Assembly (NCBI GenBank): GCA_030524205.1
Contig: JAUNGZ010000005.1
Span: 45,479 to 109,478 of the forward strand
DNA: 64,000 nucleotides
DNA from: Eubacteriales bacterium
GTDB taxonomy: Bacteria > Bacillota > Clostridia > Oscillospirales > Butyricicoccaceae
Direction: 5' to 3'
The notes beneath the pieces are model-generated. The model searched no databases, was not told where the DNA came from, and saw only the letters and a list, made by a program, of their open reading frames with translations. The translations under genes and the position numbers were made by a program. How positions within the stretch are numbered: position 1 is the first letter of the stretch; each line of letters opens with the position of its first letter. This document shows positions 2,581 through 27,584 of the stretch, in pieces.

Positions 2581-2581
2581 A

Positions 2582-3370
2582 ATGATGAGACAGGATTGTA
2601 AAACCCAATATCCGATTGTGCTGGCGCATGGGCTGGGCTTTCCGGACGAAGGCGCGCGCCCCTACTGGGGCCGTATTCCCGATGTGCTGCGCGAAAACGG
2701 GGCGCGGGTGTATTTCGGGGGACAGGACGCTTGGGGCACGATCGGCGGCAACGCGCGGCAGCTTGCCGTCGCGGTGCGCGACGCCATGCGCGCGGAGAGC
2801 GCCGCCCGCGTCAACCTGATCGCGCATTCCAAGGGCGGGCTGGAGGCGCGGCGCCTGATATCGTCCATGGGATTGGGCGGCTGCGTGGCCTCGCTGTCCA
2901 TGCTGTCCACGCCCAACCGCGGCGCGCCGATGAGCGAGATGCTGCTGCGCCTGCATCCGGGGATTGAGCTGTGGAGCGCCGCCGCCGAGCGCGGCGCGCG
3001 GCGGCGCGGCGACCGCCATCCCTCCGTGCTGCGCGCGGGACGGGAGATCACGGCGGCGGCGCTTGCGCGCTTCAATCGGGAAAATCCGGACGACAGCCGG
3101 GTGTACTATCAAAGCTGGGGCGCGCGGCTGAACGGGCTGCGCGCCGATCCCCTGATGGACTTCAGCCGCCGGTTTGTCGACCGGCGCGCGGGCGAAGGGA
3201 GCGACGGGCTGGTAACCCCTTCCTCCGCGCGGTGGGGGCGGTACCGGGGCACGCTCGAGGGCGTGTCCCACCAGATGCTGGCCGACGCCTTCGGGCGCGA
3301 CATAGCGGGCTTTGACGTGCGTGGATTTTATACACAGCTTGTGCATGAGCTGGCGGAAATGGGATTTTAA
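2582..3370 (+). CDS. alpha/beta-hydrolase, bacterial triacylglycerol-lipase-like
   Basis: A 262-residue hydrolase resembling family I lipases. YPIVLAHGLGF near the N-terminus would form the oxyanion hole. The nucleophile is Ser83 in the elbow AHSKGG. Asp208 in GSDGLVT and His230 in GVSHQM complete a plausible triad. There is no signal peptide, so a cytoplasmic location is expected, unlike the classical secreted lipases. The ATG at 2582 follows the rlmH stop directly; ATG 2585 is an alternative. It probably shares the walJ-rlmH transcript. The substrate is unknown; a lipid or ester is inferred from the fold only. Confidence 0.8.
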   Translation: MMRQDCKTQYPIVLAHGLGFPDEGARPYWGRIPDVLRENGARVYFGGQDAWGTIGGNARQLAVAVRDAMRAESAARVNLIAHSKGGLEARRLISSMGLGGCVASLSMLSTPNRGAPMSEMLLRLHPGIELWSAAAERGARRRGDRHPSVLRAGREITAAALARFNRENPDDSRVYYQSWGARLNGLRADPLMDFSRRFVDRRAGEGSDGLVTPSSARWGRYRGTLEGVSHQMLADAFGRDIAGFDVRGFYTQLVHELAEMGF

Positions 3371-3500
3371 AGACGGCGGCCGCCGGTTTTGGACGGCTTC
3401 CGTCTTTTGTTTTGCGCTGAATATTTTGAAAAAGCATTTACATTGTCCGTGCAATTCGGTAAAATAGAAAAAAGAGAAAATAGTTCAGGAGGGGCGCCCC

Positions 3501-4442
3501 ATGATTATTACGATAACGCTCAACGCCGCGCTCGACCGGACGCTGCGCATCGAGCAGCCGCTGGTCGTCGGCAAGCTCAACCGCGCGGTTTCCAGCTATC
3601 TGGAGCCGGGCGGCAAGGGGATCAACGTATCCCGCGCGGTCAAAGCGCTTGGCGGCGACAGCGTTGCGCTCGGCTTTTGCGCGGGCACGAACGGCCGCAT
3701 GATGAAGGATATGCTGACCTCTGCCGATATTCATCACGATTTCGTCGATATCGCCGGACAGATGCGCGTCAACACGCAGATTATCGACGCGCAGGGCGGG
3801 CATACAGAGGTGAACGAACCCGGCAGCAAGCTGGACGACGCCGACTTCCTGCGCTTGATCGACCGGATGGAAAACTATTTGGACGAGGGCAATATTTTTG
3901 TGCTCGCAGGCTCGACGCCGCCCGGGTTCCCGCTGAAAAATTACCGAAAGCTGTGCAAGACCATCAAAAACCGCGGCTGCAAGCTGATTATCGACGCGCA
4001 CGGCGAGCTGCTGCTCGAAGCGTTGAAGTGCGAGCCGGATTTTGTCAAGCCGAATATCTTCGAGCTTGCGGAAGCGGTGGGCGATAAGCCGTCGGCCGAC
4101 CCCGAGGTCGTGGTGGTTTCCGCGCGCAAAATGCTCGACATGGGCGCGCGGGCCGTCTGCGTTTCCATGAGTCAGGAAGGCGCGGTGCTGCTGTCCAAGG
4201 ACGAGCCTGAGGCGCTGTACGTCAACACCGAGCCAAAGATTTACGACGAGGGCGCGGTCGGCACAGGCGACGCCATGGTCGGCGCGATTGCCAACAGCAT
4301 GAGCAAAAAGCTGAAATTTGATGAAATGGCGCGCTTTGCGGTCGCCACCGGCCGCGCGAGCAGCCGTCTGGCGGGCACCGAGATGGCAACCCTCAAAAAG
4401 GTGTACGAGGTGTACGAGACGACGCGGGTATACATACTGTAA
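3501..4442 (+). CDS. fruK: 1-phosphofructokinase / PfkB-family sugar-phosphate kinase
   Basis: A 313-residue ribokinase-fold enzyme of the FruK/LacC group, which phosphorylates fructose 1-phosphate or tagatose 6-phosphate to the bisphosphate. The N-terminus MIITITLNAALDRTL and the GGKGINVSRA motif are diagnostic. The ATP-site motif GAVGTGDAMVGA holds the catalytic Asp at residue 257. AGGAGGGG lies about 10 nt before the ATG. No fructose PTS or DeoR regulator is adjacent, which is unusual for fruK, so the exact sugar phosphate is uncertain. A perfect 18-bp hairpin follows the stop. Confidence 0.88.
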   Translation: MIITITLNAALDRTLRIEQPLVVGKLNRAVSSYLEPGGKGINVSRAVKALGGDSVALGFCAGTNGRMMKDMLTSADIHHDFVDIAGQMRVNTQIIDAQGGHTEVNEPGSKLDDADFLRLIDRMENYLDEGNIFVLAGSTPPGFPLKNYRKLCKTIKNRGCKLIIDAHGELLLEALKCEPDFVKPNIFELAEAVGDKPSADPEVVVVSARKMLDMGARAVCVSMSQEGAVLLSKDEPEALYVNTEPKIYDEGAVGTGDAMVGAIANSMSKKLKFDEMARFAVATGRASSRLAGTEMATLKKVYEVYETTRVYIL

Positions 4443-4450
4443 CGGAGGAT

Positions 4451-4490
4451 AAGCGAAAGCCCCAGAATGTAAATTCTGGGGCTTTCGCTT
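4451..4490. terminator. bidirectional terminator between fruK and trmD
   Basis: Perfect inverted repeat with 18-bp arms (4451-4468 and 4473-4490) and a GTAA loop, between two convergent genes. There is no long T-run on the plus side (ATTAAAAAGT follows), but the minus side has a short T-run before the stem. Confidence 0.85.
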
Positions 4491-4520
4491 ATTAAAAAGT
4501 CCTTGCGCCGCAGCGCGCTT

Positions 4521-5255
4521 TCAATCGAGCGCTTGCTCGATTTTTTGCAGGATTTTCTGGTCGCGCTTATCCGCGGGAATGAACGCGGCGTACAGGTCGG
4601 GCCGGTCCGCCTTGGTGCGGCGCAGGCTCATTTCACGCTTCCAGCCCTCGATGTTCGCATGATGGCCGGAGAGCAGCACCTCGGGCACCGTCCGGCCGCG
4701 CCAGACCTCGGGGCGGGTGTACTGCGGATGCTCCAAAAGCCCGTCCCAGTGGCTTTCTGCGGTGAATGCGTCCTCGTCGGGCAGCACGCCCGGCACCATG
4801 CGGCACACCGCGTCCGCGACCGCCATCGCGGGGATTTCGCCGCCGGTCAGCACGAAGTCGCCGATCGAAATTTCCTCGTCGACGCATTCGTCGATAAACC
4901 GCTGGTCGACGCCCTCGTAATGGCCGCAGACCAAAATGATATGCTCCTTTTGCAGCAGCTCGCGGGCCTTTTGCTGACAAAACGGCGCGCCCTGCGCGGA
5001 CAGAAAAACGGTGTGCACATGCGCGCCCCCGCAAAGCGCCTGATGGCACAGGTACAGCGGCTCGGCGAGCATGACCTGACCGCGGCCGCCGCCGTAGGGA
5101 GCGTCGTCCGCCTTGTGGTGCTTGTCCAAGGCGTAGTCGCGGATATTGGTCGCCTTGACGGAAACAAGCCCCTTGTCCTGCGCGCGGCCGATGATGCTCT
5201 CCCGCATGACCGCGTCGATCATTTCGGGGAACAGCGTCATAACGTCGATTCTCAT
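4521..5255 (-). CDS. trmD: tRNA (guanine37-N1)-methyltransferase
   Basis: SAM-dependent SPOUT methyltransferase that makes m1G37 in tRNAs reading CNN codons and so prevents +1 frameshifting. The 244-residue length is standard. The trefoil-knot motifs are clear: LVCGHYEGVDQRF, then the glycine-rich ISIGDFVLTGGE, and the C-terminal ESHWDGLLEHPQYTRP. It is last in the ylxM-ffh-rpsP-khpA-rimM-trmD operon. Its ATG overlaps the rimM stop by 4 nt (ATGA), implying translational coupling. Confidence 0.98.
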   Translation of the reverse strand: MRIDVMTLFPEMIDAVMRESIIGRAQDKGLVSVKATNIRDYALDKHHKADDAPYGGGRGQVMLAEPLYLCHQALCGGAHVHTVFLSAQGAPFCQQKARELLQKEHIILVCGHYEGVDQRFIDECVDEEISIGDFVLTGGEIPAMAVADAVCRMVPGVLPDEDAFTAESHWDGLLEHPQYTRPEVWRGRTVPEVLLSGHHANIEGWKREMSLRRTKADRPDLYAAFIPADKRDQKILQKIEQALD

Positions 5256-5758
5256 TCGAGCAGCCCCTCGATGCTTTCGATGTAGATGACGCCCGCCTCC
5301 ATGTCGATTTCCTTGAGAAAGGGCTTCGCCGCGGGGATGTAGACCAGACGGCCGTCCTCGCCCGCGATCTCGTACATATCGTGCGCGGGATTGGCGGTCA
5401 GCACGTCGCGGACGCGGCCGATATTGCGGTCCAGCCGCGTATCGTACACCTTAAAGCCGAGGATGTCCTGAATGAACACCAGATCGTCGGGCAGCTCGAC
5501 GTCGTCCCGGTTGAGCAGCAGCACGCGGTTTTTCATCGCCTCGGCGGCTTCCATCGTGTCCACGCCTTTGATGTGCATGAGCACGATATTTTTGTGCACC
5601 TGCGCTTTTTCGACGGTTACGGGCGATTTTTCGTCCAGATAGAGCGTGTCAAAATCGCAGAGCGTCTCGGGGCTGTCGCACCAGCTCTGCACCTTGAGAT
5701 CGCCCTTCACGCCGTGCGTCCCGACGATTTTGCCGGCTTCCAAGAATTTTTTAGCCAT
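5252..5758 (-). CDS. rimM: 16S rRNA processing / 30S maturation factor RimM
   Basis: Assists maturation of the 30S head through contact with S19. It is 168 residues long, in two parts: an N-terminal barrel beginning FLEAGKIVGTHGVKGDLKV, and a C-terminal PRC-barrel with RVRDVLTANPAHDMYEI and the typical ending of an IP-A-PF-D segment. The ATG at 5758 was chosen over an upstream in-frame ATG because GGAGG sits just ahead of it and family members start here. It overlaps trmD by 4 nt. Confidence 0.96.
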   Translation of the reverse strand: MAKKFLEAGKIVGTHGVKGDLKVQSWCDSPETLCDFDTLYLDEKSPVTVEKAQVHKNIVLMHIKGVDTMEAAEAMKNRVLLLNRDDVELPDDLVFIQDILGFKVYDTRLDRNIGRVRDVLTANPAHDMYEIAGEDGRLVYIPAAKPFLKEIDMEAGVIYIESIEGLLE

Positions 5759-5774
5759 AATGGTTTCCTCCGAT

Positions 5775-6095
5775 GCCCTCGCGGCGCTGCGCGCCGCTAT
5801 AAAATAGAAAAATCGCCGCAGCGCGGCGATTTTCACAAAAAGCTCTCGCGCCGCAGCGCGCATCTCATAGGACATTTCAGCAAGCTGAAATGTCCATAAA
5901 AAGTGCGAGCTCCGCCCGTGCTTGCTCTCATTTTATCGCCGCACGGCGGCGGCAAGAGGATAGAGGCCTACGGGCTTATACAAAGGTGAAGCGCTGCAAA
6001 AATCAAAATTTTTGCGGCGCTTCGGCGCGGCAGCCCTTTCAGGCAAAGCCTGATAAGGGCGTTTGCTCGATTGGAAACGTGTTTCCAATCGAAAC
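5775..6095 (-). repeat. type-1 hairpin-train element, copy B (340-nt gap inside the ffh-trmD operon)
   Basis: The khpA-rimM gap holds no gene. Read on the minus strand, it begins 4 nt after the khpA stop with a hairpin of arms TTTCGATTGGAAA/TTTCCAATCGA. It continues with AAGCGCCGCAAAAAT/ATTTTTGCAGCGCTT, then the conserved core (5922-5992), then GGACATTTCAGC/GCTGAAATGTCC (around 5873-5895). The core is about 88% identical to copy A. An element of this size between co-transcribed genes should be transcribed and could affect downstream expression of rimM-trmD. Confidence 0.75.
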
Positions 6096-6098
6096 AGT

Positions 6099-6329
6099 TT
6101 AGTCGACGATATCGACCGTGACGCGCTTGTTCTCGCGATTACCTGCCGCTTTCATGAGGGTGCGGATTTCCTTTGCGATGCGGCCGTGACGACCGATGAC
6201 GCGGCCCATATCCCCGGGCGCTACGCGCAGGGAATAGGTGACGCTGTCGCCGTCGATCTCCTCGGTGATGGCAATCGCATCCGGCTCGGAAACCAGATTT
6301 TTGACAATGTAGGTCAATAACTCTTTCAT
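6099..6329 (-). CDS. khpA: KH-domain RNA-binding protein KhpA
   Basis: A 76-residue single KH-domain protein (YlqC/KhpA), which in other Firmicutes pairs with KhpB/EloR in RNA binding and cell elongation control. The GxxG RNA-binding loop is visible as VIGRHGRIAKEIRTL. It starts at MKELLTYIVKNLV. It lies 14 nt downstream of rpsP in the usual order rpsP-khpA-rimM-trmD. Longer in-frame starts would run into rpsP and are rejected. Confidence 0.95.
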   Translation of the reverse strand: MKELLTYIVKNLVSEPDAIAITEEIDGDSVTYSLRVAPGDMGRVIGRHGRIAKEIRTLMKAAGNRENKRVTVDIVD

Positions 6330-6343
6330 TTCGTTAGCCTCAC

Positions 6344-6586
6344 TCAATTCAGCACGCCGGCCTTCTTCAGGATGCCGCGAACGGTATCGGTCGGCTGAGC
6401 GCCCTTGCTGATCCATTCCTGCGCACGTGCGGCGTCAACCGTAACGGTGGCCGGATCGGACAGCGGGTTGTAGGTGCCGATCTCCTCGATGAAACGGCCG
6501 TCACGCGGGTAACGGGAGTCCGCGACAACGATGCGGTAGAACGGAGCCTTCTTCGCGCCCAGACGGCGAAGTCTGATCTTTACCAT
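6344..6586 (-). CDS. rpsP: 30S ribosomal protein S16
   Basis: An 80-residue S16 with the expected beginning [25 protein letters not shown] and the middle [18 protein letters not shown] lies just upstream of the ATG. It belongs to the ffh-rpsP-khpA-rimM-trmD operon. A 276-nt noncoding element separates it from ffh. Confidence 0.98.
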
Positions 6587-6609
6587 GTATTTCACCTCCC
6601 ATAATAGAA

Positions 6610-6858
6610 AATATCTATTGTAAATTTCTTTACAAACAATGCGTTTCCGCGCCGAAGGCGCGTTTTTAACAGAAAATTTCAGTTTGCTGAAATTGCTCTC
6701 ATCTAATCGCCGCACGGCGGCGGAAAGCAGATAGAGGGCTACAGCCTCATAAAAAGTACGAGCTTTGCCCGTGCTTTTTATACAAATTGATGGAGCAGTG
6801 TGCCCGCAGGGCGCGCTGTGGAATCGGAACCTCGATTGAAAGCGTGGTTTCAATCGAA
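6610..6858 (-). repeat. type-1 hairpin-train element, copy C
   Basis: Fills the ffh-rpsP gap. On the minus strand it starts 4-5 nt after the ffh stop with a hairpin TTCGATTGAAA/TTTCAATCGA. It then has a TTTGTATAAAA segment that opens a hairpin with closing arm TTTTTATGA, the weaker core copy at 6693-6750, and a TTTCAGC/GCTGAAA hairpin. Copy E (38977) shares the segments GCGCGCCCTGCGGGC and TTTGTATAAAA. Confidence 0.7.
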
Positions 6859-6862
6859 TTGC

Positions 6863-8230
6863 TTAAAACGGCAGTTTCATATTGCCCATGCCGCCGAGGC
6901 CGGGGAAGCCGCCGCGGCGCTTCTTTTTGCCGCGCGCCATGCCGGTGAGCTGCTTGGTCATTTTCTGCATGGCCTCGAACTGCTTCAAAAGCTTGTTGAC
7001 TTCCTCGACGGTCAGGCCGCAGCCCGCCGCGATGCGCTTTTTGCGCGAAAAGTTGATCAGGTTTGGGTTGTCCCGTTCGCCGGGGGTCATGGATTGGATG
7101 ATGGCTTCGGTGTGCGCCATCTGCTTTTCGTCGACCTTGGCGCCTGCGAGGGCTTTTGCGTCCACGCCCGGCAGCATGCCGAGCATTTCCTCCATCGAGC
7201 CCATGTTTTTCATCTGCTGGAGCTGTGCGAGAAAATCGGTCAGCGTCAGCTTGCCGCTCATCATCTTTTTCGCGGTGTCGGCGGCCTGCTTCTGGTCGAA
7301 ATTCTGCTGCGCTTTTTCAATGAGCGTCAAAACGTCGCCCATGCCGAGGATGCGGGAGGCCATGCGGTCGGGGTGAAACGGCTCGATATCGCCGAGCTTT
7401 TCGCCCGTGCCGATGAACTTGATCGGCTTGCCCGTGACCGCCTTGACCGAAAGGGCCGCGCCGCCGCGCGCGTCGCCGTCCATCTTGCTCATCAGCACGC
7501 CGTCGATGCCGAGCGCCTCGTTGAAGGTTTCGGCAACGGTCACCGCGTCCTGACCGGTCATCGCGTCGACGACGAGGATGATCTCGGTCGGCTTTACGGT
7601 TTTTTTGATGTTCTTCAGCTCGTCCATCAGCTTTTCGTCGATATGCAGGCGGCCTGCCGTATCGAGGAAAACGAGGTCGTAGCCGTTCTTTTTGGCGAAG
7701 TCGACGCCGTGCTTTGCAATCTCGACCGGATCGCCCGCGCCCTCGTCGAACACGGCGATGTCGAGCTGCCGGCCGACCACGTGCAGCTGCTCGATCGCCG
7801 CGGGACGGTACACGTCGCACGCGACGAGCAGCGGGCGGCGCTGCTGCTGCTTGCGCAGAAGCCCGGCGAGCTTGGCGCAGTTGGTCGTTTTGCCCGCGCC
7901 CTGCAGGCCCGCCATCATGACGACGGTGGGCGGGTTGGGCGAAATGGTAAGGCGGGTGTTCTGCCCGCCAAGCAGGGCGGTCAGCTCCTCGTTTACGATC
8001 TTGATGACCTGCTGGGCGGGCGAAAGGCTTTCGAGAATCTCGGCGCCCGTCGCCTTTTCGGTGACGGATTTTACGAAATCCTTGGCGACCTTGAAGTTGA
8101 CGTCGGCCTCTAAAAGCGCCATGCGGATTTCACGCATCGCCTGCTTGATATCGCTTTCGGTCAACCGGCCCTTGCTGCGCAGGCCCTTGAATGCGGATGA
8201 TATTTTTTCGGTCAGGCCTTCAAATGCCAT
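6863..8230 (-). CDS. ffh: signal recognition particle GTPase Ffh
   Basis: SRP54 homologue of 455 residues that binds SRP RNA and signal sequences and delivers nascent chains to FtsY at the membrane. The N-domain is followed by the G-domain: P-loop GLQGAGKTT, DTAGRLHID and SKMDGDARGG. A methionine-rich M-domain ends in the Gly/Met tail GFPGLGGMGNMKLPF. It is preceded by ylxM with a 9-nt gap, the standard Firmicutes arrangement. Confidence 0.98.
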   Translation of the reverse strand: MAFEGLTEKISSAFKGLRSKGRLTESDIKQAMREIRMALLEADVNFKVAKDFVKSVTEKATGAEILESLSPAQQVIKIVNEELTALLGGQNTRLTISPNPPTVVMMAGLQGAGKTTNCAKLAGLLRKQQQRRPLLVACDVYRPAAIEQLHVVGRQLDIAVFDEGAGDPVEIAKHGVDFAKKNGYDLVFLDTAGRLHIDEKLMDELKNIKKTVKPTEIILVVDAMTGQDAVTVAETFNEALGIDGVLMSKMDGDARGGAALSVKAVTGKPIKFIGTGEKLGDIEPFHPDRMASRILGMGDVLTLIEKAQQNFDQKQAADTAKKMMSGKLTLTDFLAQLQQMKNMGSMEEMLGMLPGVDAKALAGAKVDEKQMAHTEAIIQSMTPGERDNPNLINFSRKKRIAAGCGLTVEEVNKLLKQFEAMQKMTKQLTGMARGKKKRRGGFPGLGGMGNMKLPF

Positions 8231-8239
8231 GCTAGCCTC

Positions 8240-8602
8240 CTACCCGAGCTGGGTGAGCAGCAGCGCCATGCGGGACGCGATTTCGTCCGCCTCGCTGCTG
8301 TGCAGTTTATCGGCGTTAAGAATGCGGAGCCGTTCGACCTCGAGGGCAAGCGCCTCCGCGCATTTGCCGGCGGCACCGAAGCGGGCGACAAGGCCGAGCT
8401 TGGCTTCCATTTCGCCCAGCGCGTGTTCGGCGCGCTTGACGCTGTCGCGCACGCCCTGACGGGTGATGCCGGCGTGCTCGGCGATTTCGGCGAGCGACAG
8501 ATCCTCGTTGTAATAAAGGTCGAATAGCTCGCGCTGTTTGTCGGTCAGCGTTTCGCCGTAAAAGTCGAACAGCAGGCTCATTTCGAGCGGTTTGCCTTTC
8601 AT
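8240..8602 (-). CDS. ylxM: YlxM family HTH protein, putative SRP-associated regulator
   Basis: A 120-residue UPF0122 protein with a sigma-region-4-like helix-turn-helix: LTDKQRELFDLYYNEDLSLAEIA, then AGITRQGVRDSVKRAE. In streptococci YlxM binds the SRP and modulates its activity. GGGAGG precedes the ATG at 8602; the internal Met7 is an alternative start matching many homologues. It is the first gene of the ffh operon. The promoter is 8657-8685 and the leader carries a TGTAAAG/CTTTACA inverted repeat (8623-8644). Confidence 0.92.
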   Translation of the reverse strand: MKGKPLEMSLLFDFYGETLTDKQRELFDLYYNEDLSLAEIAEHAGITRQGVRDSVKRAEHALGEMEAKLGLVARFGAAGKCAEALALEVERLRILNADKLHSSEADEIASRMALLLTQLG

Positions 8603-8656
8603 CGGCGGGCCTCCCTCGGAAGTGTAAAGTTATTTGCCTTTACATCGAACGTGATT

Positions 8657-8685
8657 ATTCTATCGTATAAACCGGCGCTTGTCAA
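8657..8685 (-). promoter_or_regulatory. sigma-A-type promoter of the ylxM-ffh-rpsP-trmD operon
   Basis: On the minus strand: TTGACA (8680-8685), 17-nt spacer, TAGAAT (8657-8662). It lies 55 nt upstream of ylxM, in an AT-rich pocket. Confidence 0.75.
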
Positions 8686-8749
8686 GAGAAAATAAAAAGA
8701 CTTTGACATTTGGGGAAAAGCGGGGGCGTTTCGTTCACGAAAAGTCCAT

Positions 8750-8778
8750 TTGCACCCCATACGGTTTAATGTTATAAT
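8750..8778 (+). promoter_or_regulatory. sigma-A-type promoter of the M16 peptidase pair
   Basis: TTGCAC (8750-8755), 17-nt spacer, TATAAT (8773-8778), 39 nt before the first M16 gene. Confidence 0.75.
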
Positions 8779-8817
8779 AATGCACATGGAAAAATTTTTC
8801 CGGAAACGAGGAAATTT

Positions 8818-10098
8818 ATGCAACACGTGACCCGAAAAAAACTGGGCGCAGGCGTAAATCTCACCTGCGTGACCACGCCTAAGTTCAAGCGGGCGGTTTT
8901 GCGCGCGGCGCTTTTGCTGCCGCTCGGCGGACCGGACGCGGCGCTCAGGGCTTGTCTGCCGCAGGTGCTGCGGCGCGGCACGGCGCGGCTGCCCGATCTC
9001 GGCGCGATCGGCGCGGCGCTGGACGACGCGTACGGCGCGCGTATCGAAACGACCGTGCGCAAGGAGGGGGAGACGCTCGCGGTCGGCTTTTTATCCGACT
9101 GCATCGACGAGCAGTATGCCCCCGGCGCCGAGGGGCTGACCGCCTCGGTCGTCCGGCTGCTTTGCGAAATGTTGTTCGCCCCCTATCTGATGGACGGCGT
9201 TTTCAGCCCCGACTACACAGAGGGCGAAAAGAAAAACCTGCTGGACCGCATCGCGGCGCAGAAAAACGATCCGCGCCAGTACGCGCCCAAACGGCTGACC
9301 GAGCTGATGTGCGAAAACGAAGCGTACGGGCAGTCGGCGCTCGGCACGGCCGGGCAGGCCGAGCGCATTACGGAAAATAAGCTCTACACTGCCTATCGCC
9401 GCGCGCTGGACGAAGCGCAGCTCGAGCTGTTTTACTGCGGCACGATGGCGCCGGACGCGGTCGAGGCGCTGTTCGCCGCCGCGCTGCCCGCGCGCGGGGA
9501 GGGGGCGTTTTACACGCCTGCCGCGGAAATCGTGCCGCGGCCCGCGGGCGCGCCGCGCGAGATCGTCGAGCGGGAGCCGGTGACGCAGGGCAAGCTTTCG
9601 CTCGGCTTCCGCACGGGCGGGACAAGCCTGCTGAGCGGCGACACGCCCGCTTACTGGATGTTCCAGACGATCTTCGGCGGTTCGACCAGCTCCAAGCTGT
9701 TTCTGAACGTGCGCGAGAAAAAATCGCTCTGCTATTATGCGAGCGCGCAGTTTGTCGGGCTGAAGGGCATTCTGCTGGTCAACTCCGGCATTGAAAACAA
9801 GGATTTCGAGGTCGCGCGCGACGAGATCACGCGCCAGCTCGAGGCGTGCAGGGCGGGCGACATTTCGGACGCGGAGATCGAATCGGCCCGCAAGACGCTG
9901 ACGAGCGCGTGGCGCACCATGCTGGACGACCCGCTGACGCTCGAGCGGTATTGGCTGACGCAGGCGGTCGCGGGCACGCTCACCCCGCCGGAGGAGCGCG
10001 TCGGGCAGATTGAATCGGTCACGCGCGAGCGCATCGTCGCCGCGGCGGAGGGCACGGCGCTCGACACCGTGTACTTTATGAAGGGGGCGGGCAAATGA
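8818..10098 (+). CDS. M16-family peptidase, YmfF-like subunit without the zinc motif
   Basis: A 426-residue protein of the insulinase/processing-peptidase superfamily. It lacks HxxEH, so it is expected to be the non-catalytic partner. It keeps the C-terminal half motif FGGSTSSKLFLNVREKKSL, which in M16 heterodimers contributes the R/Y substrate-binding element. The ATG at 8818 is followed directly by the family opening. It overlaps the next gene (HxxEH-bearing) by 4 nt. The pair matches the ymfF-ymfH arrangement of Firmicutes; the biological substrate is unknown. Confidence 0.88.
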   Translation: MQHVTRKKLGAGVNLTCVTTPKFKRAVLRAALLLPLGGPDAALRACLPQVLRRGTARLPDLGAIGAALDDAYGARIETTVRKEGETLAVGFLSDCIDEQYAPGAEGLTASVVRLLCEMLFAPYLMDGVFSPDYTEGEKKNLLDRIAAQKNDPRQYAPKRLTELMCENEAYGQSALGTAGQAERITENKLYTAYRRALDEAQLELFYCGTMAPDAVEALFAAALPARGEGAFYTPAAEIVPRPAGAPREIVEREPVTQGKLSLGFRTGGTSLLSGDTPAYWMFQTIFGGSTSSKLFLNVREKKSLCYYASAQFVGLKGILLVNSGIENKDFEVARDEITRQLEACRAGDISDAEIESARKTLTSAWRTMLDDPLTLERYWLTQAVAGTLTPPEERVGQIESVTRERIVAAAEGTALDTVYFMKGAGK

Positions 10099-20109: not shown

Positions 20110-21540
20110 TTATTCGCCCAGATAATGCAGCCGCTTGAGAAACTCTTTGTTTTCGGTTTTTTCGCAGATCGCGTCGATACCCGAGGACACGACCCAAACA
20201 GCCATCCCTCTTTGCGCGCAGGTTACCAGCATATCAATAATCATCTCGTGGTGCGCCGATTCCTGCCCGACAAACGGGAAAAAGCAGATCAACAGACGCG
20301 GGCTTAAAAAATACCACTTATAATAAGAAAAACGCAGCCGTTCAGGCAGCGGCCATTCGCGAAGCGGACGGAGCAGCGCGTCCCTGCTGAACCAGCGGGA
20401 CGCCTCCTGCAAAATGCTTTCTACAAGATTGCGGTGCATGATATGCTGTCCCGCTTTGGGGAGCAGACAGATGCATAAATTATCCAGTGCGGTCAAATTG
20501 TCGAACAGTACGCCGCTGGGGCGGTCGGGACGTTCGATCTGAATGCCGATCCGCGTGCCGACCACCTTGCGCATCTCTGCGTGCGTATATACCCTGCCGT
20601 CCAGACAAAACGCTCCGCTCAGCCAGCTCTTCTCGCCCACAAAGCAGTCGCGGATCTGCGACACCGTGTTGTAATTCTCGTCCCGCAGAAAGGCGATTTC
20701 TCCGCTGCGGATTTCAAAATTGAGCGGGGACACGGCGGGAAAGGTGAGCCCGGACACGGCCAGCACGACCTGTTCGTCAGGCTGGGGCTCGGCATTATCC
20801 GTGCGGACGCCGCGGCGTTTCCAACCGAGGATTTCGTACAGCCGGCCGTCGTATTCCTCCGGATGGAGCCGGTAGCAGGTTTTCCGAGCCTTGATCACGT
20901 CGATTCGGATGGCGTGCCGGTAGAGGAATTCCTCGTCCATGTCAAAGACGATCACCGCGGCCCCTTGCTGCAGCAGCAGGCGGACGCAGTGCATCAGCTG
21001 CTCCAGATCCTTTTGGCGCAGGATTTCAGTCAAGCGGTCTAGTGCGACCAGATCGTTCTGCCAGAACCACGCGCGAAAAATAGCGAGCCGGTAATAATCG
21101 AGCAGCGAAAGGCCGATCAGCTTTTGCTCCCACGGAAAAACGCACGACATCTGCCGGCGCATCTGCTCGGACTGCGGCGACAGCAGACGCTGCGACGCGC
21201 TTCGCTTTTGCCGCCAGCCAAGGCTTTTGTCCAGCGCCAGCACGAAATCCCACACGGTCAGCTCCCCGGAATCAAAGCGCTGCCGGTCTATGATCATGCA
21301 GCGCTGTGCGATATAGCGTTCCAGCTCTATGGAACCGGACCGGCGGCCAAGGCAAAAAACCTTTCCGCTGATGATGTGCGAATACCCCTTGAAAATATCC
21401 AAATAGGCTGTGCCCGAGGTCAAGTGGTCGTCCACGTAGACCCCGATACATTCTCCGCGGCAGATGGCGATATCAAACTGGTAGTCGTCGCCGTCGCTCC
21501 GGAAACGGCCGTTCTCCACACGGATTAGCTCCTCTTTCAT
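20110..21540 (-). CDS. ATPase-dead RbsA/MglA-like tandem ABC protein in a two-component operon
   Basis: A 476-residue protein with the two-domain outline of sugar ABC ATPases (compare the intact 497-residue homologue at 26091-27584) but without catalytic motifs. RGECIGVYVDDHLTSGTAY aligns without gaps to the genuine P-loop segment PGEVHALMGENGAGKSTLM; the P-loop Lys is replaced by Ser42. At Walker B of domain 1, DEPT reads DRLT (168-171), and the switch His is lost. In domain 2, ILDEPTRGID reads ICFFPFVGQE (418-427), while flanking residues still align (PRLLI; MAVWVVSSGI). The frame is fully open. It is third in an operon after the response regulator and kinase, with 6 nt between it and the kinase. 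A ligand- or protein-binding regulatory role is inferred. Confidence 0.85.
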   Translation of the reverse strand: MKEELIRVENGRFRSDGDDYQFDIAICRGECIGVYVDDHLTSGTAYLDIFKGYSHIISGKVFCLGRRSGSIELERYIAQRCMIIDRQRFDSGELTVWDFVLALDKSLGWRQKRSASQRLLSPQSEQMRRQMSCVFPWEQKLIGLSLLDYYRLAIFRAWFWQNDLVALDRLTEILRQKDLEQLMHCVRLLLQQGAAVIVFDMDEEFLYRHAIRIDVIKARKTCYRLHPEEYDGRLYEILGWKRRGVRTDNAEPQPDEQVVLAVSGLTFPAVSPLNFEIRSGEIAFLRDENYNTVSQIRDCFVGEKSWLSGAFCLDGRVYTHAEMRKVVGTRIGIQIERPDRPSGVLFDNLTALDNLCICLLPKAGQHIMHRNLVESILQEASRWFSRDALLRPLREWPLPERLRFSYYKWYFLSPRLLICFFPFVGQESAHHEMIIDMLVTCAQRGMAVWVVSSGIDAICEKTENKEFLKRLHYLGE

Positions 21541-21546
21541 CGGCGT

Positions 21547-22365
21547 TCACTCCTCCTGTGCGAGCAGCGGCAGCGTTACGCGGCACTCTGTGCCGACGCC
21601 GGACGCGCTGAAGATGCGAAGCCCATAATCCTCGCCGAACATCAGGCGGATGCGGCTGTTGACGTTGCGCAGCGCGATGCCGTCCCGCAGATGCACGCCG
21701 GTCGGCCCGTCGTCCGCGGCAAAGGCTTCGTTAAGCCGCGCCACCTGCTCCTCGGGCATCCCCACGCCGTCGTCCCGCACGCGGAGAAACAGCGTGTTTT
21801 CGCTGCTCTCAACGAGGATGCGGACCGTGCCGTGCTCGAGCTTTCCTTCCAAGCCGTGCGAAACCGCGTTTTCTACCAGCGGCTGCAGAATCAGCTTGGG
21901 CATCCGCGCTTCCAGCAGGGCTTCGTCGCTGAGCTCAAGCTCCATCGACAGCTTATCGCCAAAGCGGCAGCGCTGGACGGTAAAATAGTTCTCGGCGTTG
22001 TCCAATTCGTCGGAAAACGTCACATATTCCTGCAAATTGGAGATTGTATAGCGGAAAAAGGTGGCAAGCGCCTCGGTTGTTTCGGCGATCTCGGCGCAGT
22101 CCGCGAGCAGCGCGTCCGACCGGATCGCTTCGAGTGCGTTGTATAGAAAATGCGGGTTAATCTGGTTTTGCAGAGCCAGATATTCCGCCTGCTTTTGCTG
22201 CAGCTTGGCGATCTCTTTGCCGTGCAGCCGCGTTTCGATGTCCGCGAAGAACGCACTGAGCTCGGGCTCCCGGCTCCAGTCCTTCCGCAGCACGGCTTCC
22301 AAATTTTTATCGTTCCGATAACGCCGCAGCGCGTTCCACAACGTCCATCCCATTCGCAACCACAT
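21547..22365 (-). CDS. YesM/LytS-type histidine kinase without membrane segment
   Basis: A 272-residue sensor kinase. The His_kinase motif ALQNQINPHFLYNALEAIR carries the phospho-acceptor His72. The HATPase domain follows with the N-box (LVENAVSHGLEGK), DDGVGMPEEQ and the C-terminal IALRNVNSRIRLMFG. Members of this group usually have two membrane spans and an outside sensor domain. Here the catalytic core is preceded by only about 60 residues with no hydrophobic helix, so the kinase should be cytosolic and must receive its signal from a partner. It lies between the response regulator (8-nt gap) and the dead ABC protein. Confidence 0.92.
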   Translation of the reverse strand: MWLRMGWTLWNALRRYRNDKNLEAVLRKDWSREPELSAFFADIETRLHGKEIAKLQQKQAEYLALQNQINPHFLYNALEAIRSDALLADCAEIAETTEALATFFRYTISNLQEYVTFSDELDNAENYFTVQRCRFGDKLSMELELSDEALLEARMPKLILQPLVENAVSHGLEGKLEHGTVRILVESSENTLFLRVRDDGVGMPEEQVARLNEAFAADDGPTGVHLRDGIALRNVNSRIRLMFGEDYGLRIFSASGVGTECRVTLPLLAQEE

Positions 22366-22373
22366 GGTACCAC

Positions 22374-23957
22374 CTACTTATACAGCTTTTTGTAATCCGA
22401 CGGGCTGACTCCGGTCGTTTTCTTGAACAGCCGCGAAAAATATTTTAAATCGTGGTAGCCGACCTGTTCGGCTACGTCCTGCACGGACAGCGTGTCGGTG
22501 CACAGCAGCTCTTTGGATTTATTGATGCGCAGCTCGGTCAGATAATCCATAAAATTCTGGCCGGTCTCTTTTTTGAACAATACCGAAAAATAAGTGGCGT
22601 TGAAGCCGACCGCGCTGCTTACGTCCTCGAGCCGCAGCGCCTGCTGATAATGCTGCTGGATATAGCGCTTCGCCTCGGTGATCGGGCGGGTCTCCTGCAG
22701 CGATTTTTCCTCGTTCAGGCTGCGGAGCTGTTCGCATACGCCTTCCCGGAGCAGGTGCAGAACGTCCTGCGGAGAGGCGCAGCGCCAAAAATTCTCCTGC
22801 ATGGTTTCCATGAACTGCGGCTCCGTCTTGGCGCTTTGCCGCATACCGTACAGGCTGGCCTCCAACACCTGCGTAAACCAATCCGCCAGCATCTGCCCGT
22901 TGAGCGGTTTTCTCGGCAAAATCAAACGGTAGCTGTCTTCCAGCTCCTGCGTAAAGAGCGTTTCATCCAAATATTCCGCCGCCACTTGAAAGCGCTTCCT
23001 TTGGGCGGCGTCCATTTGATACCGCTCGTTAAGCGGCAGCTTTTCGTTCCCCGCATCCCGCCACGGCTGCTCATGGCACAAACGGTCGCGGCAAAGCCAA
23101 AACGCTTCCTGCATGGAGACGCCGAGCTGCTCCGGAGAGGTTTGCCGGCTGCCCAAGCAGACCGTGCAGCGGATCCCCCAAAAGAGATCGCGCTGTTTTT
23201 CGACCTCCTTGCGGATTTTGGTAAAGCACTGCTTGACATCGACCGCGCGGTAATCGCGCAGATACAGCAGGACGGCCACCCCTTCCCATAAAACGGCGGC
23301 CGCGCATTCGTCCGCGAGCGGCTGCACCGCCCGCCGAACGATCTCCAAGGTGTGCTGCATCATGATACGGTATCCGTCCAGCGACTGATCCGCATAGCGG
23401 ATATCCGGTTTGATCAGCGCGGCTAAATAATAGCCCTTGCCAAAATGCAGGCCGTATTCCTCCTCGGCCTGCTGTATGGTCAGAAACGGCTGCTGCCGTT
23501 CGGCCGCGGTTTTGAGCGCGGCAATCAGCAGGTCTTGCCGGCGCTCCCCGCTTTTTTGCAAATGGTATTCCAGAGCGGTTTCTTCGCCGAGCTTGTCCTT
23601 CAAACGGAGCAGGATATCGGAAAGCTCGTCTTGCTTGAGCGGTTTGAGCAGGTAATCCTCCACACCGTATTTCAGCACGGCCTGCGCATATTCAAATTGC
23701 CGGTAGCCGCTGATGACGATGAAATGCAGCCCCGGCTGCAGCTGCTTGGCGCGGCGGATCAGTTCGATCCCGCTGCAGCCCGGCATGCGGATATCGGTAA
23801 TCAGCAGATGCGGCTGCTTTTGCTGCACCAGTTCAAGCGCGCGCACGCCGTCGTTGGCCGTGCCGACGACTTGGTAGCCGAGATTTTCCCAGTCGACCAG
23901 CTTTTGCATGAGCGAAATGATTTTTTTCTCATCGTCCGCCAGAACGACTCTTAACAT
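22374..23957 (-). CDS. AraC-type response regulator (YesN-like)
   Basis: A 527-residue regulator. The N-terminal receiver has the phospho-acceptor Asp55 in LLITDIRMPG and the Lys of YLLKPLK. A long middle region of about 280 residues follows, and a C-terminal pair of AraC helix-turn-helices (from about 430: LEDVSSAVGFNATYFSVLFK and VQDVAEQVGYHDLKYFSRLF). The ATG at 23957 is preferred, since GGAGG ends 7 nt upstream; an ATG two codons earlier is too close. It probably controls the neighbouring sugar ABC operon. Its own promoter is at 24029-24057. Confidence 0.94.
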   Translation of the reverse strand: MLRVVLADDEKKIISLMQKLVDWENLGYQVVGTANDGVRALELVQQKQPHLLITDIRMPGCSGIELIRRAKQLQPGLHFIVISGYRQFEYAQAVLKYGVEDYLLKPLKQDELSDILLRLKDKLGEETALEYHLQKSGERRQDLLIAALKTAAERQQPFLTIQQAEEEYGLHFGKGYYLAALIKPDIRYADQSLDGYRIMMQHTLEIVRRAVQPLADECAAAVLWEGVAVLLYLRDYRAVDVKQCFTKIRKEVEKQRDLFWGIRCTVCLGSRQTSPEQLGVSMQEAFWLCRDRLCHEQPWRDAGNEKLPLNERYQMDAAQRKRFQVAAEYLDETLFTQELEDSYRLILPRKPLNGQMLADWFTQVLEASLYGMRQSAKTEPQFMETMQENFWRCASPQDVLHLLREGVCEQLRSLNEEKSLQETRPITEAKRYIQQHYQQALRLEDVSSAVGFNATYFSVLFKKETGQNFMDYLTELRINKSKELLCTDTLSVQDVAEQVGYHDLKYFSRLFKKTTGVSPSDYKKLYK

Positions 23958-23988
23958 ATGCATTCCTCCGGTAACTTATCTGACGATG

Positions 23989-24022
23989 AGAAAAGGGAAA
24001 ACGATTTCGTTTTCCCTTTTCT
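23989..24022. terminator. 16-bp perfect hairpin between the SBP gene and the TCS operon
   Basis: Arms 23989-24004 and 24007-24022 (AGAAAAGGGAAAACGA and its complement) with 2 nt between. It follows the SBP gene on the minus strand. Because the TCS promoter lies just upstream (24029-24057), the hairpin also forms the very 5' end of the response-regulator mRNA. Confidence 0.7.
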
Positions 24023-24028
24023 ATATTT

Positions 24029-24057
24029 ATCATAACACCTATTTTGAGATTTACCAA
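24029..24057 (-). promoter_or_regulatory. promoter of the response regulator-kinase-dead ABC operon
   Basis: Minus strand: TTGGTA (24052-24057), 17-nt spacer, TATGAT (24029-24034). The predicted start falls at the edge of the 23989-24022 hairpin. Confidence 0.65.
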
Positions 24058-24084: not shown

Positions 24085-25053
24085 TTAGGCAAAGGTCGAA
24101 ACGTTAGAGGCGTCAATCCATGTGTTGTCGGTGATGATGACGTTTTTGTCCAGCGAGCCGCCGCTCAGCAGCTTTACCGCCGCCTCGATCCCGTTGGCGG
24201 CCATAGCGCCGCCGTTCTGGGAAACCGTGCCGGTGATGCGGCCGTCCTGAATGGCTTCAAAACCGTCCGGGGTGCCGTCGACGCCGGTAATGATGATGCC
24301 GCTGTTCGCGCCGGCCGCCATGCCGTCGTTTTCGCAAACGATAGCGTCCAGATCGTAAGCGGACAGCCAGCTTTCCACCGTGGACTGCGCGCTCGCGGTA
24401 TCCCACTGGCAGTCAGCCGGAGCGACGACCTGCTTGATGTCGGGGTAGTTCTTCAGCACGTTTTCGTAGCCTTCCATACGCTGCAAGCCGCCCGAGTCGC
24501 CGGAGGGGCCGGTCAGGATGGCGATATTGCCCTTGCCGCCGAGCAGATCGGCAACATTCTGCATTTCGGTTTCGCCGGCCTTGACGTTATCGCCGAAGGA
24601 TACGGCTGCGATGCCGTTCGACTCCCAATCGGTGCAGGCCGAAATGATATTGATGACAACAACGCCGGCGTCCGCTGCGTTTTTCGCCGCGTCGCCCAGC
24701 CCATCGGGATCGACAGGCTCGAACAGAATCGCGTTATAGCCCTCGGATACGCATTGCTCGATCTGGCTGATCTGGGTTGCGGCGTCCTGATCCGCGCTCA
24801 GAATGGTCAGGTCCACGCCCAGCTCTGCCGCTTTGGCCTCGGCGGCCTCGGAAACGGCGATCTGGAACGCATTGGTCTGATGCTGCTGGATCAGCGCGAT
24901 TTTGTACGTATCGGCGCCGTCCTTGCCGGCGTCCGCGTTGGGGTCGGCGCTGGCGCCGCCGTTTCCGCCCTCGTTTGCAGAGTTGCCGCAGCCCGCCAGA
25001 GTCAGAGCCATCGCGCCGGCCGTCAGCATGGCCAGAAATCTTTTTTTGCTCAT
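24085..25053 (-). CDS. sugar ABC transporter substrate-binding lipoprotein
   Basis: A 322-residue periplasmic-binding-protein type 1 (RbsB/Peripla_BP_4-like). The signal MSKKRFLAMLTAGAMALTLAGC ends at lipobox Cys22, so it is a lipoprotein anchored on the outer face of the membrane. A Gly/Asn/Asp linker precedes the domain, which opens YKIALIQQHQTNAFQIA. GGAGG lies 8 nt before the ATG at 25053. It is third in the ATPase-permease-SBP operon. The sugar cannot be told from sequence by eye. Confidence 0.93.
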   Translation of the reverse strand: MSKKRFLAMLTAGAMALTLAGCGNSANEGGNGGASADPNADAGKDGADTYKIALIQQHQTNAFQIAVSEAAEAKAAELGVDLTILSADQDAATQISQIEQCVSEGYNAILFEPVDPDGLGDAAKNAADAGVVVINIISACTDWESNGIAAVSFGDNVKAGETEMQNVADLLGGKGNIAILTGPSGDSGGLQRMEGYENVLKNYPDIKQVVAPADCQWDTASAQSTVESWLSAYDLDAIVCENDGMAAGANSGIIITGVDGTPDGFEAIQDGRITGTVSQNGGAMAANGIEAAVKLLSGGSLDKNVIITDNTWIDASNVSTFA

Positions 25054-25122
25054 TTTTTCTTCCTCCTTAAGAAGCATATATGGTAAGAGCAAAGCGCCGC
25101 GCGCCTTAGCTCTTAACATTCG

Positions 25123-26070
25123 TTAGTTTTTCTTTCCCTTGCCCTTCACGTCCATCAGGACCGCCAGCACAATGATCGCGCCCTTGACGATCTTTTGCCA
25201 GTGCGACGATACGCCCATGATGTCCAAGCCGTTGGCGATAATGGTAATCAGCAGACAGCCCACCACAACGCCCCACGGCTTGCCGACGCCGCCCGCCATG
25301 GACACGCCGCCGACGACGCACGCGGTTATCGCGTCCATTTCATAGCTTTCCGCCGCGGTCGGCTGGCCGATCGTTACGCGGGAGGTCATCAAAAAGCCGC
25401 TCAGACCGGCCAGCAGGCCGGCAATGGCGAACGTGGAAATGCGAATCGCCGTTGTGTTGATGCCCGAAACGCGCGCCGCCTGCAGGTTGCCGCCGCAGGC
25501 ATAGACACGGCGGCCGTATACCGTTTTGGCCAGCACAAACGAGCAGATCAGAATGACGATTACCAGAAAGACCGCCAGCATCGGCACGCCGAAGACCGAG
25601 CCCCCGGCGATTCCGCGGTATTCCTTGCTGATGCCGGTGATCGGCTTGCCCTTGGAGGTCAGCAGCGCAAGGCCGCGCACGGCGGTCATTGTGCCGAGCG
25701 TCATGATAAACGGCGGCAGGTCGCCGATCGCCACGCCCACGCCGTTTACCAGACCGACCGCGAGACCGGCCAGCATCGCGACGATCAGCGGCACGATCAG
25801 CGGATACTGGCCCTGCCCGAGCATCGCGGCCAGAATGCCGGTGAACGCAACCGTCGAGCCGACGGACATATCGAAGCCGCCCGCGATGATGACGAACATC
25901 ATACCGAACGCCAAAATGCCGTTGATCGAGGCTTGCTTCATGATATTGACCAGATTGCTCGGCTGGATAAAGCTCGGCTTAAGGCAGGTCAATACGATTA
26001 CCAGCGCGATAAAAATCGCGAAGATGAAATATTCGCTGATCAGCGCCTTTGCATTTTTTTTCTGTTTCAT
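25123..26070 (-). CDS. sugar ABC transporter permease (RbsC/MglC type)
   Basis: A 315-residue integral membrane protein of the BPD_transp_2 family. It has many hydrophobic helices, the segment GGFDMSVGSTVAFTGILAAM, and the conserved ACGGNLQAARVSGIN, the permease motif that contacts the ATPase. The start MKQKKNAKALISEYF has GGGGG upstream; far longer in-frame starts would lie inside the ATPase gene. It is second in the operon. Confidence 0.94.
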   Translation of the reverse strand: MKQKKNAKALISEYFIFAIFIALVIVLTCLKPSFIQPSNLVNIMKQASINGILAFGMMFVIIAGGFDMSVGSTVAFTGILAAMLGQGQYPLIVPLIVAMLAGLAVGLVNGVGVAIGDLPPFIMTLGTMTAVRGLALLTSKGKPITGISKEYRGIAGGSVFGVPMLAVFLVIVILICSFVLAKTVYGRRVYACGGNLQAARVSGINTTAIRISTFAIAGLLAGLSGFLMTSRVTIGQPTAAESYEMDAITACVVGGVSMAGGVGKPWGVVVGCLLITIIANGLDIMGVSSHWQKIVKGAIIVLAVLMDVKGKGKKN

Positions 26071-26090: not shown

Positions 26091-27584
26091 TCACACCTCG
26101 ATGGCGGAGGCCAGCGCCATGATGCGCTCCTGAGAGAAGTCCGCCCTCTTGACCTCGCCGGACAGGTTGCCCTCGCACATGACCATGATCCGGTCGCAGA
26201 CGCCCATCAGCTCGGGGATCTCGGACGAGATCATGACGACCGCCTTGCCCTGCTGCACGAGCTTGCCGAGGAGCAGGTAGATGTCGCGCTTGGCGCCCAC
26301 GTCGATGCCGCGGGTCGGTTCGTCCAGAATGATGATATCGGGATCGTTCAGCAGCCATTTGGCGATAACGACTTTTTGCTGGTTGCCGCCGGACAGGTTG
26401 CCGACGATCTGGTCGCCGGAAGGAGTTTTGATGTTCAGCTTTTTTATGTAGTCCAGCGACGCGCTGCGCGCCTTGTTTTTGTTGTAAAGGCCGTGGCTGA
26501 GCAGCTTGCGGATAGCGACCATTGCAATGTTGTCGTTAACCGTGCCGCTCAGGTTTAAGCCGGTGACCTTGCGGTCCTCGGTGATGAGCGCGACGCCCTC
26601 CTTGATGATATCATGCGGCGAATGCACGGCAACCCGCTTATCCCGGATAAAGACCTCACCGCTCGACAGCGGGTGCATGCCGAACAGGCCCTCGACCAGC
26701 TCGCTGCGGCCCGCGCCGACCAGCCCGCCGATACCGAGGATTTCGCCCTTGCGGACGGAAAAGCTGACGCCCTTGACCTTGCGGTCCGCGCGGGCGATGT
26801 TTTTGGCTTCCAAAACGACCTCGCCGATTTCCGCTTCCAGCTTGGGGAACACATCGGTGATTTCGCGGCCGACCATCATCTTGATCAGCTGCGCCTCGTC
26901 CAAATCCTTTGTGTCGCCGGAAGCGATATACTGGCCGTCGCGGTAGACGCTGACGCGGTCGCAGATGGAGAAGATTTCGTCCATGCGGTGCGATATATAG
27001 ATGATTGCGACGCCCTTTTCGGCAAGCTTGCGGATGTGGCCGAACAGCAGCTCGACCTCGCGCTCGCTGATCGCCGCGGTCGGCTCGTCCATGATGATGA
27101 CCTTTGCATTGACCGAAATCGCCTTGATGATCTCGATCAGCTGGCACTGCGCGACCGTCAGGCTGCGCAGCTTTTCCTCGGGCGCGACATGCAGGCCGCT
27201 CTCCTCAATCAGCTTTCGGGACTGCTCGATCTCGGCTTTTTTGTCCACCAGACCGTTTTTGCGGATTTCACGGCCGACAAAAATGTTTTCATACACGGAC
27301 ATATCAAGGATCGGATTGAGCTCCTGATGGATCATAGCAACGCCGAGATCCATCGCCTCCTTGGGGCTTGCAGCCTTGTAGGGCTTTCCGGAAAAAAGGA
27401 TTTCGCCGCCGTCGTCCTTGGAGTAAATGCCCATCAGAATTTTCATCAGCGTCGATTTACCCGCGCCGTTTTCGCCCATCAGTGCGTGCACCTCGCCGGG
27501 TTTTATCTGAAGCTGGACGCGGTCGAGCGCTTTTACACCGGGAAATGTTTTGCTGATGTCTTTCATTTCCAGTATATACTCCAT
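26091..27584 (-). CDS. sugar ABC transporter ATPase (RbsA/MglA type)
   Basis: A 497-residue tandem ABC ATPase. Domain 1 has an intact P-loop GENGAGKST (37-45), MDEPTAA and the switch SH in IIYISHRMDEIF. Domain 2 has a degenerate P-loop (LVGAGRSEL), as is normal in this family, with LSGGNQQKV and ILDEPTRGID. GGAGGG lies 8 nt before the ATG. It is the first gene of the sugar uptake operon and the useful reference for the motif-less homologue at 20110-21540. Confidence 0.96.
   Translation of the reverse strand: MEYILEMKDISKTFPGVKALDRVQLQIKPGEVHALMGENGAGKSTLMKILMGIYSKDDGGEILFSGKPYKAASPKEAMDLGVAMIHQELNPILDMSVYENIFVGREIRKNGLVDKKAEIEQSRKLIEESGLHVAPEEKLRSLTVAQCQLIEIIKAISVNAKVIIMDEPTAAISEREVELLFGHIRKLAEKGVAIIYISHRMDEIFSICDRVSVYRDGQYIASGDTKDLDEAQLIKMMVGREITDVFPKLEAEIGEVVLEAKNIARADRKVKGVSFSVRKGEILGIGGLVGAGRSELVEGLFGMHPLSSGEVFIRDKRVAVHSPHDIIKEGVALITEDRKVTGLNLSGTVNDNIAMVAIRKLLSHGLYNKNKARSASLDYIKKLNIKTPSGDQIVGNLSGGNQQKVVIAKWLLNDPDIIILDEPTRGIDVGAKRDIYLLLGKLVQQGKAVVMISSEIPELMGVCDRIMVMCEGNLSGEVKRADFSQERIMALASAIEV

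Follow-up and report, generated by a model that had tools for sequence, protein, structure and literature searches.

An RbsA-derived pseudo-ATPase encoded with a two-component system beside a sugar importer operon

The gene row and its surroundings

The window, a 64,000-nucleotide stretch of a Eubacteriales bacterium contig, comprises an rbsA-rbsC-rbsB operon and, downstream of it on the same strand, a row of three genes encoding a response regulator (RR), a histidine kinase (HK) and a protein that we call X (Table 1). The frame of X starts with ATG and is intact, the latter as the sequence-only reading of this DNA had it, and the gaps of 8 nt between RR and HK and 6 nt between HK and X were measured as that reading gives them. 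By Pfam, the regulator, described there as AraC-type, has the AraC-type helix-turn-helix (HTH) and also a receiver domain, and is thus a response regulator. The kinase is of the LytS/YesM type, and the neighbouring operon does encode a genuine RbsA. The window's own genome is 82% complete.

Table 1. Features of the X locus in window coordinates
Feature	Position	Strand	Description
X (product of ORF 20110-21540)	20110..21540	-	RbsA-derived pseudo-ATPase, 476 aa, ATPase motifs all replaced
HK	21547..22365	-	Histidine kinase, His_kinase PF06580 + HATPase_c, 272 aa
RR	22374..23963	-	Response regulator, receiver domain + AraC-type HTH, 529 aa
Inverted repeat	23989..24022	.	Perfect, 16 bp, just downstream of the sigma-70-like promoter
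Promoter	24029..24057	-	Sigma-70-like, TTGGTA-17-TATGAT, TG ahead of second hexamer, before RR-HK-X
RbsB	24085..25119	-	Substrate-binding protein of the true transporter
RbsC	25123..26070	-	Permease of the true transporter; putative docking partner of X
RbsA	26091..27584	-	Genuine RbsA-type ATPase, intact Walker A, DEPT, His, LSGGNQQ

Between rbsB and RR, a promoter-like pattern of the form TTGGCA-N-TATNAT was found in 12 of 17 loci, and a strong GAAAAGGGAAAACG hairpin follows it (23989-24057 in the window), likewise in 12 of 17; both patterns were chosen after the sequences had been viewed, and the promoter scan proper gave 5 sites against 3.1 expected. A variant hairpin lies ahead of RR at L041, and the GAAAAGGGAAAACG-type pattern detected no hairpin at L062, L063 and L065, three loci that lack an rbs operon upstream. 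In the rbsB-RR intergenic region of L039, an insert breaks up the hairpin; it is able to form a long stem of its own and may be a small mobile element.

Homology to RbsA and loss of the ATPase motifs

A Pfam search did not find ABC_tran in X, and a sequence search of solved structures in the PDB returned nothing useful (best E 0.55). Among the NCBIfam models, matches lay far below the cut-off, the best being to RbsA-class families (YtfR, E 4e-9; AraG, E 3e-8). By profile-profile comparison with hhalign, as the sequence-only reading had proposed, 19 X orthologues matched 15 true RbsA proteins at 98.8% probability and E 8e-17 over 426 columns, covering residues 21-458 of X and 22-459 of RbsA. 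This match rules out chance resemblance and establishes X as a genuine, full-length homologue of RbsA. The earlier claim of an ungapped alignment to sugar ABC ATPases at several landmarks is thereby extended to full-length homology, but the profile alignment does contain gaps. X has the RbsA-type (CUT2) layout, with two fused nucleotide-binding domains (NBDs), a length near 500 aa and full-length alignability.

Every catalytic motif in both halves has been replaced, which bears out what had been seen in the sequence alone. The Walker A motif GENGAGKST reads DDHLTSGTA in X; the position of its lysine falls on S42 in the ungapped alignment and on G43 in the MAFFT alignment, with the lysine absent either way. 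Walker B has changed from DEPT to DRLT and the switch histidine to methionine; in the second domain (D2), the signature LSGGNQQ reads WPLPERL and the Walker B segment ILDEPTRGID reads ICFFPFVGQE. X therefore lacks the entire set expected of a working ATPase (Walker A GKS, DEPT, switch His, D2 LSGGNQQ and D2 DEPTRGID), which marks it as a derived RbsA homologue rather than a working member of the family. Judged by these replacements, it should not hydrolyse ATP.

We scored 22 X proteins at the 94 columns that 24 true RbsA proteins conserve and found a mean retention of 0.34. Among the kept columns are G60 and N352 (each 22/22), P423 (21/22) and N100 (16/22, missing in the window clade itself); these were singled out after all 94 had been viewed, and several resemble fold positions. 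The asparagine at N352 may be a helix cap, and its segment presumably lies close to the permease, as in MalK. Gone from every X protein are the switch histidine H199, the D2 signature residues G399 and N401, and Q148 (each 0/22). The D1 Walker B glutamate persists in four of the 22 (L098, L135, L145 and L181), and the D1 Walker A lysine column is occupied in ten. The lysine would suit a reading in which X, especially in its less degenerate forms, binds ATP without hydrolysing it and senses the energy state for the kinase. We consider this very unlikely, with the lysine missing from the other 12 proteins, five window-clade rows included, and with both the switch histidine and the G399 glycine lost from all 22.

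Few X proteins are as degenerate as those of the window clade. Within the clade, 62 of 150 positions in the former ATP-site segments are invariant, against 72 of 326 elsewhere (Fisher p 3e-5). The former catalytic sites give the impression of remodelling, not of erosion, although residues buried in the core may account for part of the difference. In a broader family of degenerate RbsA proteins, X is the extreme case. The count of 22 leaves aside several near copies, in the window clade and in the groups of L052, L135, L139, L141 and L179, as well as six proteins with differing gene order, length or degeneration. Of these six, L150 is nearly intact; L149 retains the Walker B DE, a histidine and the D2 DEPT; L100 retains Walker A, a histidine in the switch region and the D2 DEP; L151 retains Walker A and MDEP in D1; L101 has an apparent frameshift near its end; and L146 is the sixth. 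A tree splits the 24 true RbsA proteins from the 22 X proteins with a support of 0.79, and its long branches would accommodate a single origin or repeated ones.

Maintenance of X and its linkage to the kinase

Relatives of X were surveyed in 60 genomes, 24 from the same genus and 36 others. Full-length, stop-free copies at 60-89% identity occur in ten of the 24; among the 36 others we found no close copy and weak matches only, two of which are distant X proteins (L020/L051 and L021/L052). A contig search returned 15 stretches that matched a pattern, of which 12 were confirmed, all aligning across 467-476 of the 476 residues, in records titled Butyricicoccus, Agathobaculum, Oscillibacter, Dysosmobacter, Clostridia, Oscillospiraceae or bacterium. 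Another genus of the same family holds four more copies, 56-61% identical. By pairwise NG86 estimates, dN/dS of X ranges from 0.03 to 0.24 (nine usable of 11 pairs, two being saturated), with single ratios rough because some dS values exceed 1. This range is near those of HK (0.03-0.16), RR (0.04-0.22) and RbsB (0.01-0.20) and above those of RbsA and RbsC (0.01-0.09). On these ratios, X is under purifying selection.

Frameshifts or stops in orthologues had been named as the sign of a decaying pseudogene, and the data reject that explanation. Fourteen of the 24 same-genus genomes lack a full-length X, and one genome, G008, carries two short 3' fragments of X (on C14 and C11) beside a full copy, from which it follows that extra copies do decay. 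Against decay of X itself stand the open full-length frames in ten genomes, the near-complete alignment of all 12 confirmed loci, the dN/dS close to that of HK and RR, and the absence of the kinase wherever X is missing in the genus. The short 3' fragments of X at L049:7791-8261 and G008:C11:57950-58078 are apparently what is left of extra copies, in a genome that also has the complete trio.

The three genes are adjacent and in the same order, RR-HK-X, at all 22 close-orthologue loci (17 distinct by X sequence) and at all four loci in the other genus. Across the 22, the two gaps measure 8-10 nt and 1-7 nt. In the survey of kinase, regulator and X beside sugar operons that the sequence-only reading had put forward, the trio is linked and rbs genes lie near by in 26 of 26 loci. 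At L062, L063 and L065 the rbs genes are on the other side and the opposite strand, with another RR-like gene intervening at L063 and L065; at L060, L092 and L095 the contig stops before rbsA.

Relatives that kept the kinase and regulator without X would have spoken against a functional link, and in the 24 same-genus genomes none came to light: ten have both kinase and X, with the orthologous kinase adjoining X in each, and 14 have neither. In these 14, several of which are incomplete assemblies, the best kinases are distant, none exceeding 138 bits or 40% identity to the window kinase, where the same search gave 466-547 bits in three X-bearing genomes.

In a sample of the class, scored on the top four candidates per genome, the X profile gave 16 matches that reached 411 bits or more, spread over 15 of the 391 genomes; after a gap came ordinary RbsA proteins, starting at 317 bits. 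All 15 of these genomes also carry a short kinase. Conversely, among 18 class genomes with a short kinase that is X-adjacent or of the G735 type (G463 aside), 15 have an X match of at least 411 bits; the three below it are G432, in which the contig ends within X, and G480 and G564, in which X is divergent or partly degenerate. In G735 the kinase (L138) has no X at its locus and X is encoded unlinked elsewhere in the genome, which fits a partner acting in trans. A gene for X stands apart from its kinase at L215:8115-9569, flanked by a class I tRNA synthetase gene on one side and M42 peptidase genes on the other. The pairing of X with a short kinase is well supported.

Searches with kinase profiles extended the family beyond close orthologues. 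The order RR-HK-X-RbsA-RbsC-SBP recurs at L052, L096, L135, L136 and L140-L143, and outside the class at L179-L181; a phylum search matched three of 298 other genomes at 1e-85. Among the matches listed, 35 of 37 distinct related kinase genes shorter than 400 aa adjoin X or a degenerate RbsA resembling it, and, because X-linked kinases seeded the profiles, a choice that favours their recovery, this and the following fractions describe that subfamily rather than all short kinases. The first set (25 matches) contributed 21 such frames, all 21 beside X or an X-like gene, and four longer ones without it; the second contributed 20, with 18 so placed among the matches listed; four genes are common to both. 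The arrangement varies: the X-like gene precedes RR at L100 and at L149, where it is only partly degenerate, X is convergent at L147, and at L144 the contig ends within X. The two exceptions to the pairing are L138, described above, and G463:C89 (L220), a 253-aa frame that has the kinase core only and is probably a kinase fragment; the 9.3 kb around it contain neither RR nor X.

Longer relatives (at least 400 aa) behave differently, with 26 of the 29 inspected among the matches listed (25 from the second set and four from the first) having no X. Twenty of them, taken as controls from the next-ranked rows plus one from the window's own genome, gave 0/20 with X, and of the other five from the second set two are without it. 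A PF06580 kinase as such is therefore no marker of X. An altered RbsA-like protein lies near the long kinase at L146, L150 and L151. The stretch L151:5968-10419 encodes a 600-aa kinase, an RR, a binding protein, a partly degenerate RbsA (MDEPI, LTRR, STVDKL) and an RbsC, and is maybe an intermediate form. In a kinase tree, the X-linked kinases fall in one clade, shared with the longer L150, L151 and L152 and the 444-aa L146; by this tree, the clade of the sensorless kinases stands apart from most long kinases.

Kinase architecture and a putative sensory role for X

The window kinase comprises the His_kinase and HATPase_c domains; we found no N-terminal sensor domain of the kind present in long relatives and, by hydropathy, no transmembrane (TM) helix. 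The short kinases of the family likewise have no extracellular domain by hydropathy. Outside the window clade, 18 of 20 have just two TM segments, with 2-22 residues between them, and the remaining two have three (L051) and one (L097). In the window clade, three of three lack a TM segment near the N-terminus, whereas 22 of 26 long relatives have two TM segments about 245-280 residues apart. Kinase and X have thus changed together in the window clade, the one lacking TM helices and the other Walker A.

With no sensor domain, such a kinase depends on a partner for sensing, and X is its most constant partner besides RR. We therefore propose, with about as much confidence as doubt, that X may be the dedicated sensory subunit of the sensorless kinase, a pseudo-ATPase docked on an RbsC-type permease and relaying the permease's state. 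A CUT2 (RbsA-type) ATPase would have been duplicated and have lost its hydrolysis residues while keeping the double-NBD layout. X would then dock on an RbsC-type permease, in the window the transporter's own RbsC and in some modules an extra one, and would pass the sugar-bound or working state of the permease to a kinase that it binds. The kinase would phosphorylate the AraC-type RR, which would probably switch the rbs operon. This suggests that a worn-out importer part became the sensing half of a signalling switch.

X is homologous to a protein that docks on RbsC, and docking on the permease would be the simplest mechanism. The idea had been raised from the sequence alone, where a dead ATPase was thought to sit on the permease and report transport to the kinase; the association of X with sensorless kinases has since emerged in its support, and docking and relay remain at the level of a plausible model. 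The variant in which X would compete with the true ATPase drew evidence neither for nor against. Docking draws support from three inspected modules with an extra RbsC-like permease after X, other inspected modules having none. At L091 (G000:C22:1-14000, 1346-9821), a second, diverged RR-HK-X module of the window genome, and at L097, the order is RR-HK-X-RbsC'-RbsA-RbsC-RbsB; L099 has RR-SBP'-HK-X-RbsC', and the 17 kb retrieved there contain no true RbsA. Tentatively, and with more doubt than conviction, X and an RbsC-type permease, joined in some modules by their own RbsC' and even a binding protein, could be a non-transporting importer turned transmembrane receptor, in which the dead ATPase signals to the kinase. 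A complete module of the L099 type is not a common form; the L099 X matched one of 87 family genomes at 1e-40, namely its own.

The main rival reading also makes X a sensory subunit of the kinase, but one that makes no contact with the permease and instead detects a ligand from the cytosol, such as a sugar phosphate, through its remodelled nucleotide pockets. The new invariant residues in the former ATP-site segments (62/150) are consistent with it, and with a window kinase that lacks TM helices, nothing ties the complex to the membrane and both X and HK could reside entirely in the cytosol. Other members of the family point to the membrane: of the 20 short kinases beyond the window clade, 19 have at least two N-terminal TM segments and the other has one, and the extra permease after X at L091, L097 and L099, together with the binding protein at L099, argues in the same direction. 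We regard a cytosolic ligand as unlikely. A role on the output side appears more improbable again: X, made by the two-component system, would be a competitive stand-in for RbsA on RbsC and throttle transport. As a full-length RbsA homologue encoded near true RbsA, and as the last gene of the RR-HK-X row, X could act in this way; however, it accompanies sensorless kinases and few of their long relatives, and the L099 X has no true RbsA near by to compete with.

A sensory subunit derived from an importer ATPase would have partial precedents. In MalK-MalT, an importer ATPase informs a regulator about transport, and in XylFII-LytS, an importer binding protein is recruited to a two-component system serving a sugar importer. 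A binding protein linked to a kinase also serves a sugar importer in CuaD-CuaSR (outlined in passages of PMC10384115), and PstSCAB-PhoU-PhoR is an importer that informs a regulator about transport (passages of PMC6978683). In MalK-MalT and PstSCAB-PhoU-PhoR the ATPase is the working one, whereas X is a second, dead relative; XylFII-LytS and CuaD-CuaSR recruit an extracellular binding protein, whereas the X module would recruit a cytosolic ATPase, and its window kinase offers a binding protein no extracellular domain on which to act. Compared with RbsA, MglA and AraG (CUT2), X has the same two-NBD layout and a similar length, but the window X lacks the Walker A lysine, DEPT, LSGGNQQ and the switch histidine. 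PMC7386598 reports that the locus of an amino-acid ABC transporter was co-opted for signalling.

A further likeness is to the Bce-like modules of Firmicutes (BceRS-BceAB), in which, as passages of PMC3023708 and PMC6978683 describe, an intramembrane-sensing kinase works with an ABC transporter encoded next to it. Bce-like modules use an active, antibiotic-related transporter whose permease has a large extracytoplasmic loop, whereas the X module consists of CUT2 sugar importer parts, its permeases being of the BPD_transp_2 (RbsC) type, with a PF06580 (LytS/YesM-type) kinase and an added ATPase-dead paralogue. As for the Bce kinase trait of two TM helices and no extracellular domain, 18 of 20 short kinases of the wider family have two closely spaced TM segments and the window kinase has none.

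Among the papers listed in searches of the CC-licensed PMC literature, none described a dead CUT2 ATPase paired with a kinase. To our knowledge, in transporter-coupled kinases it is the working transporter or its binding protein that is read. If the proposed role holds, a dead ATPase relative beside sensorless kinases would be a new way of building a receptor and would account for how kinases without a sensor domain perceive sugar; the system would also offer a clean genetic test of the roles of an ABC ATPase apart from ATP hydrolysis. The pairing was found in several bacterial families, also outside the class of the window, and many X-type proteins are presumably annotated automatically as sugar ABC transporter ATP-binding proteins and hence hidden.
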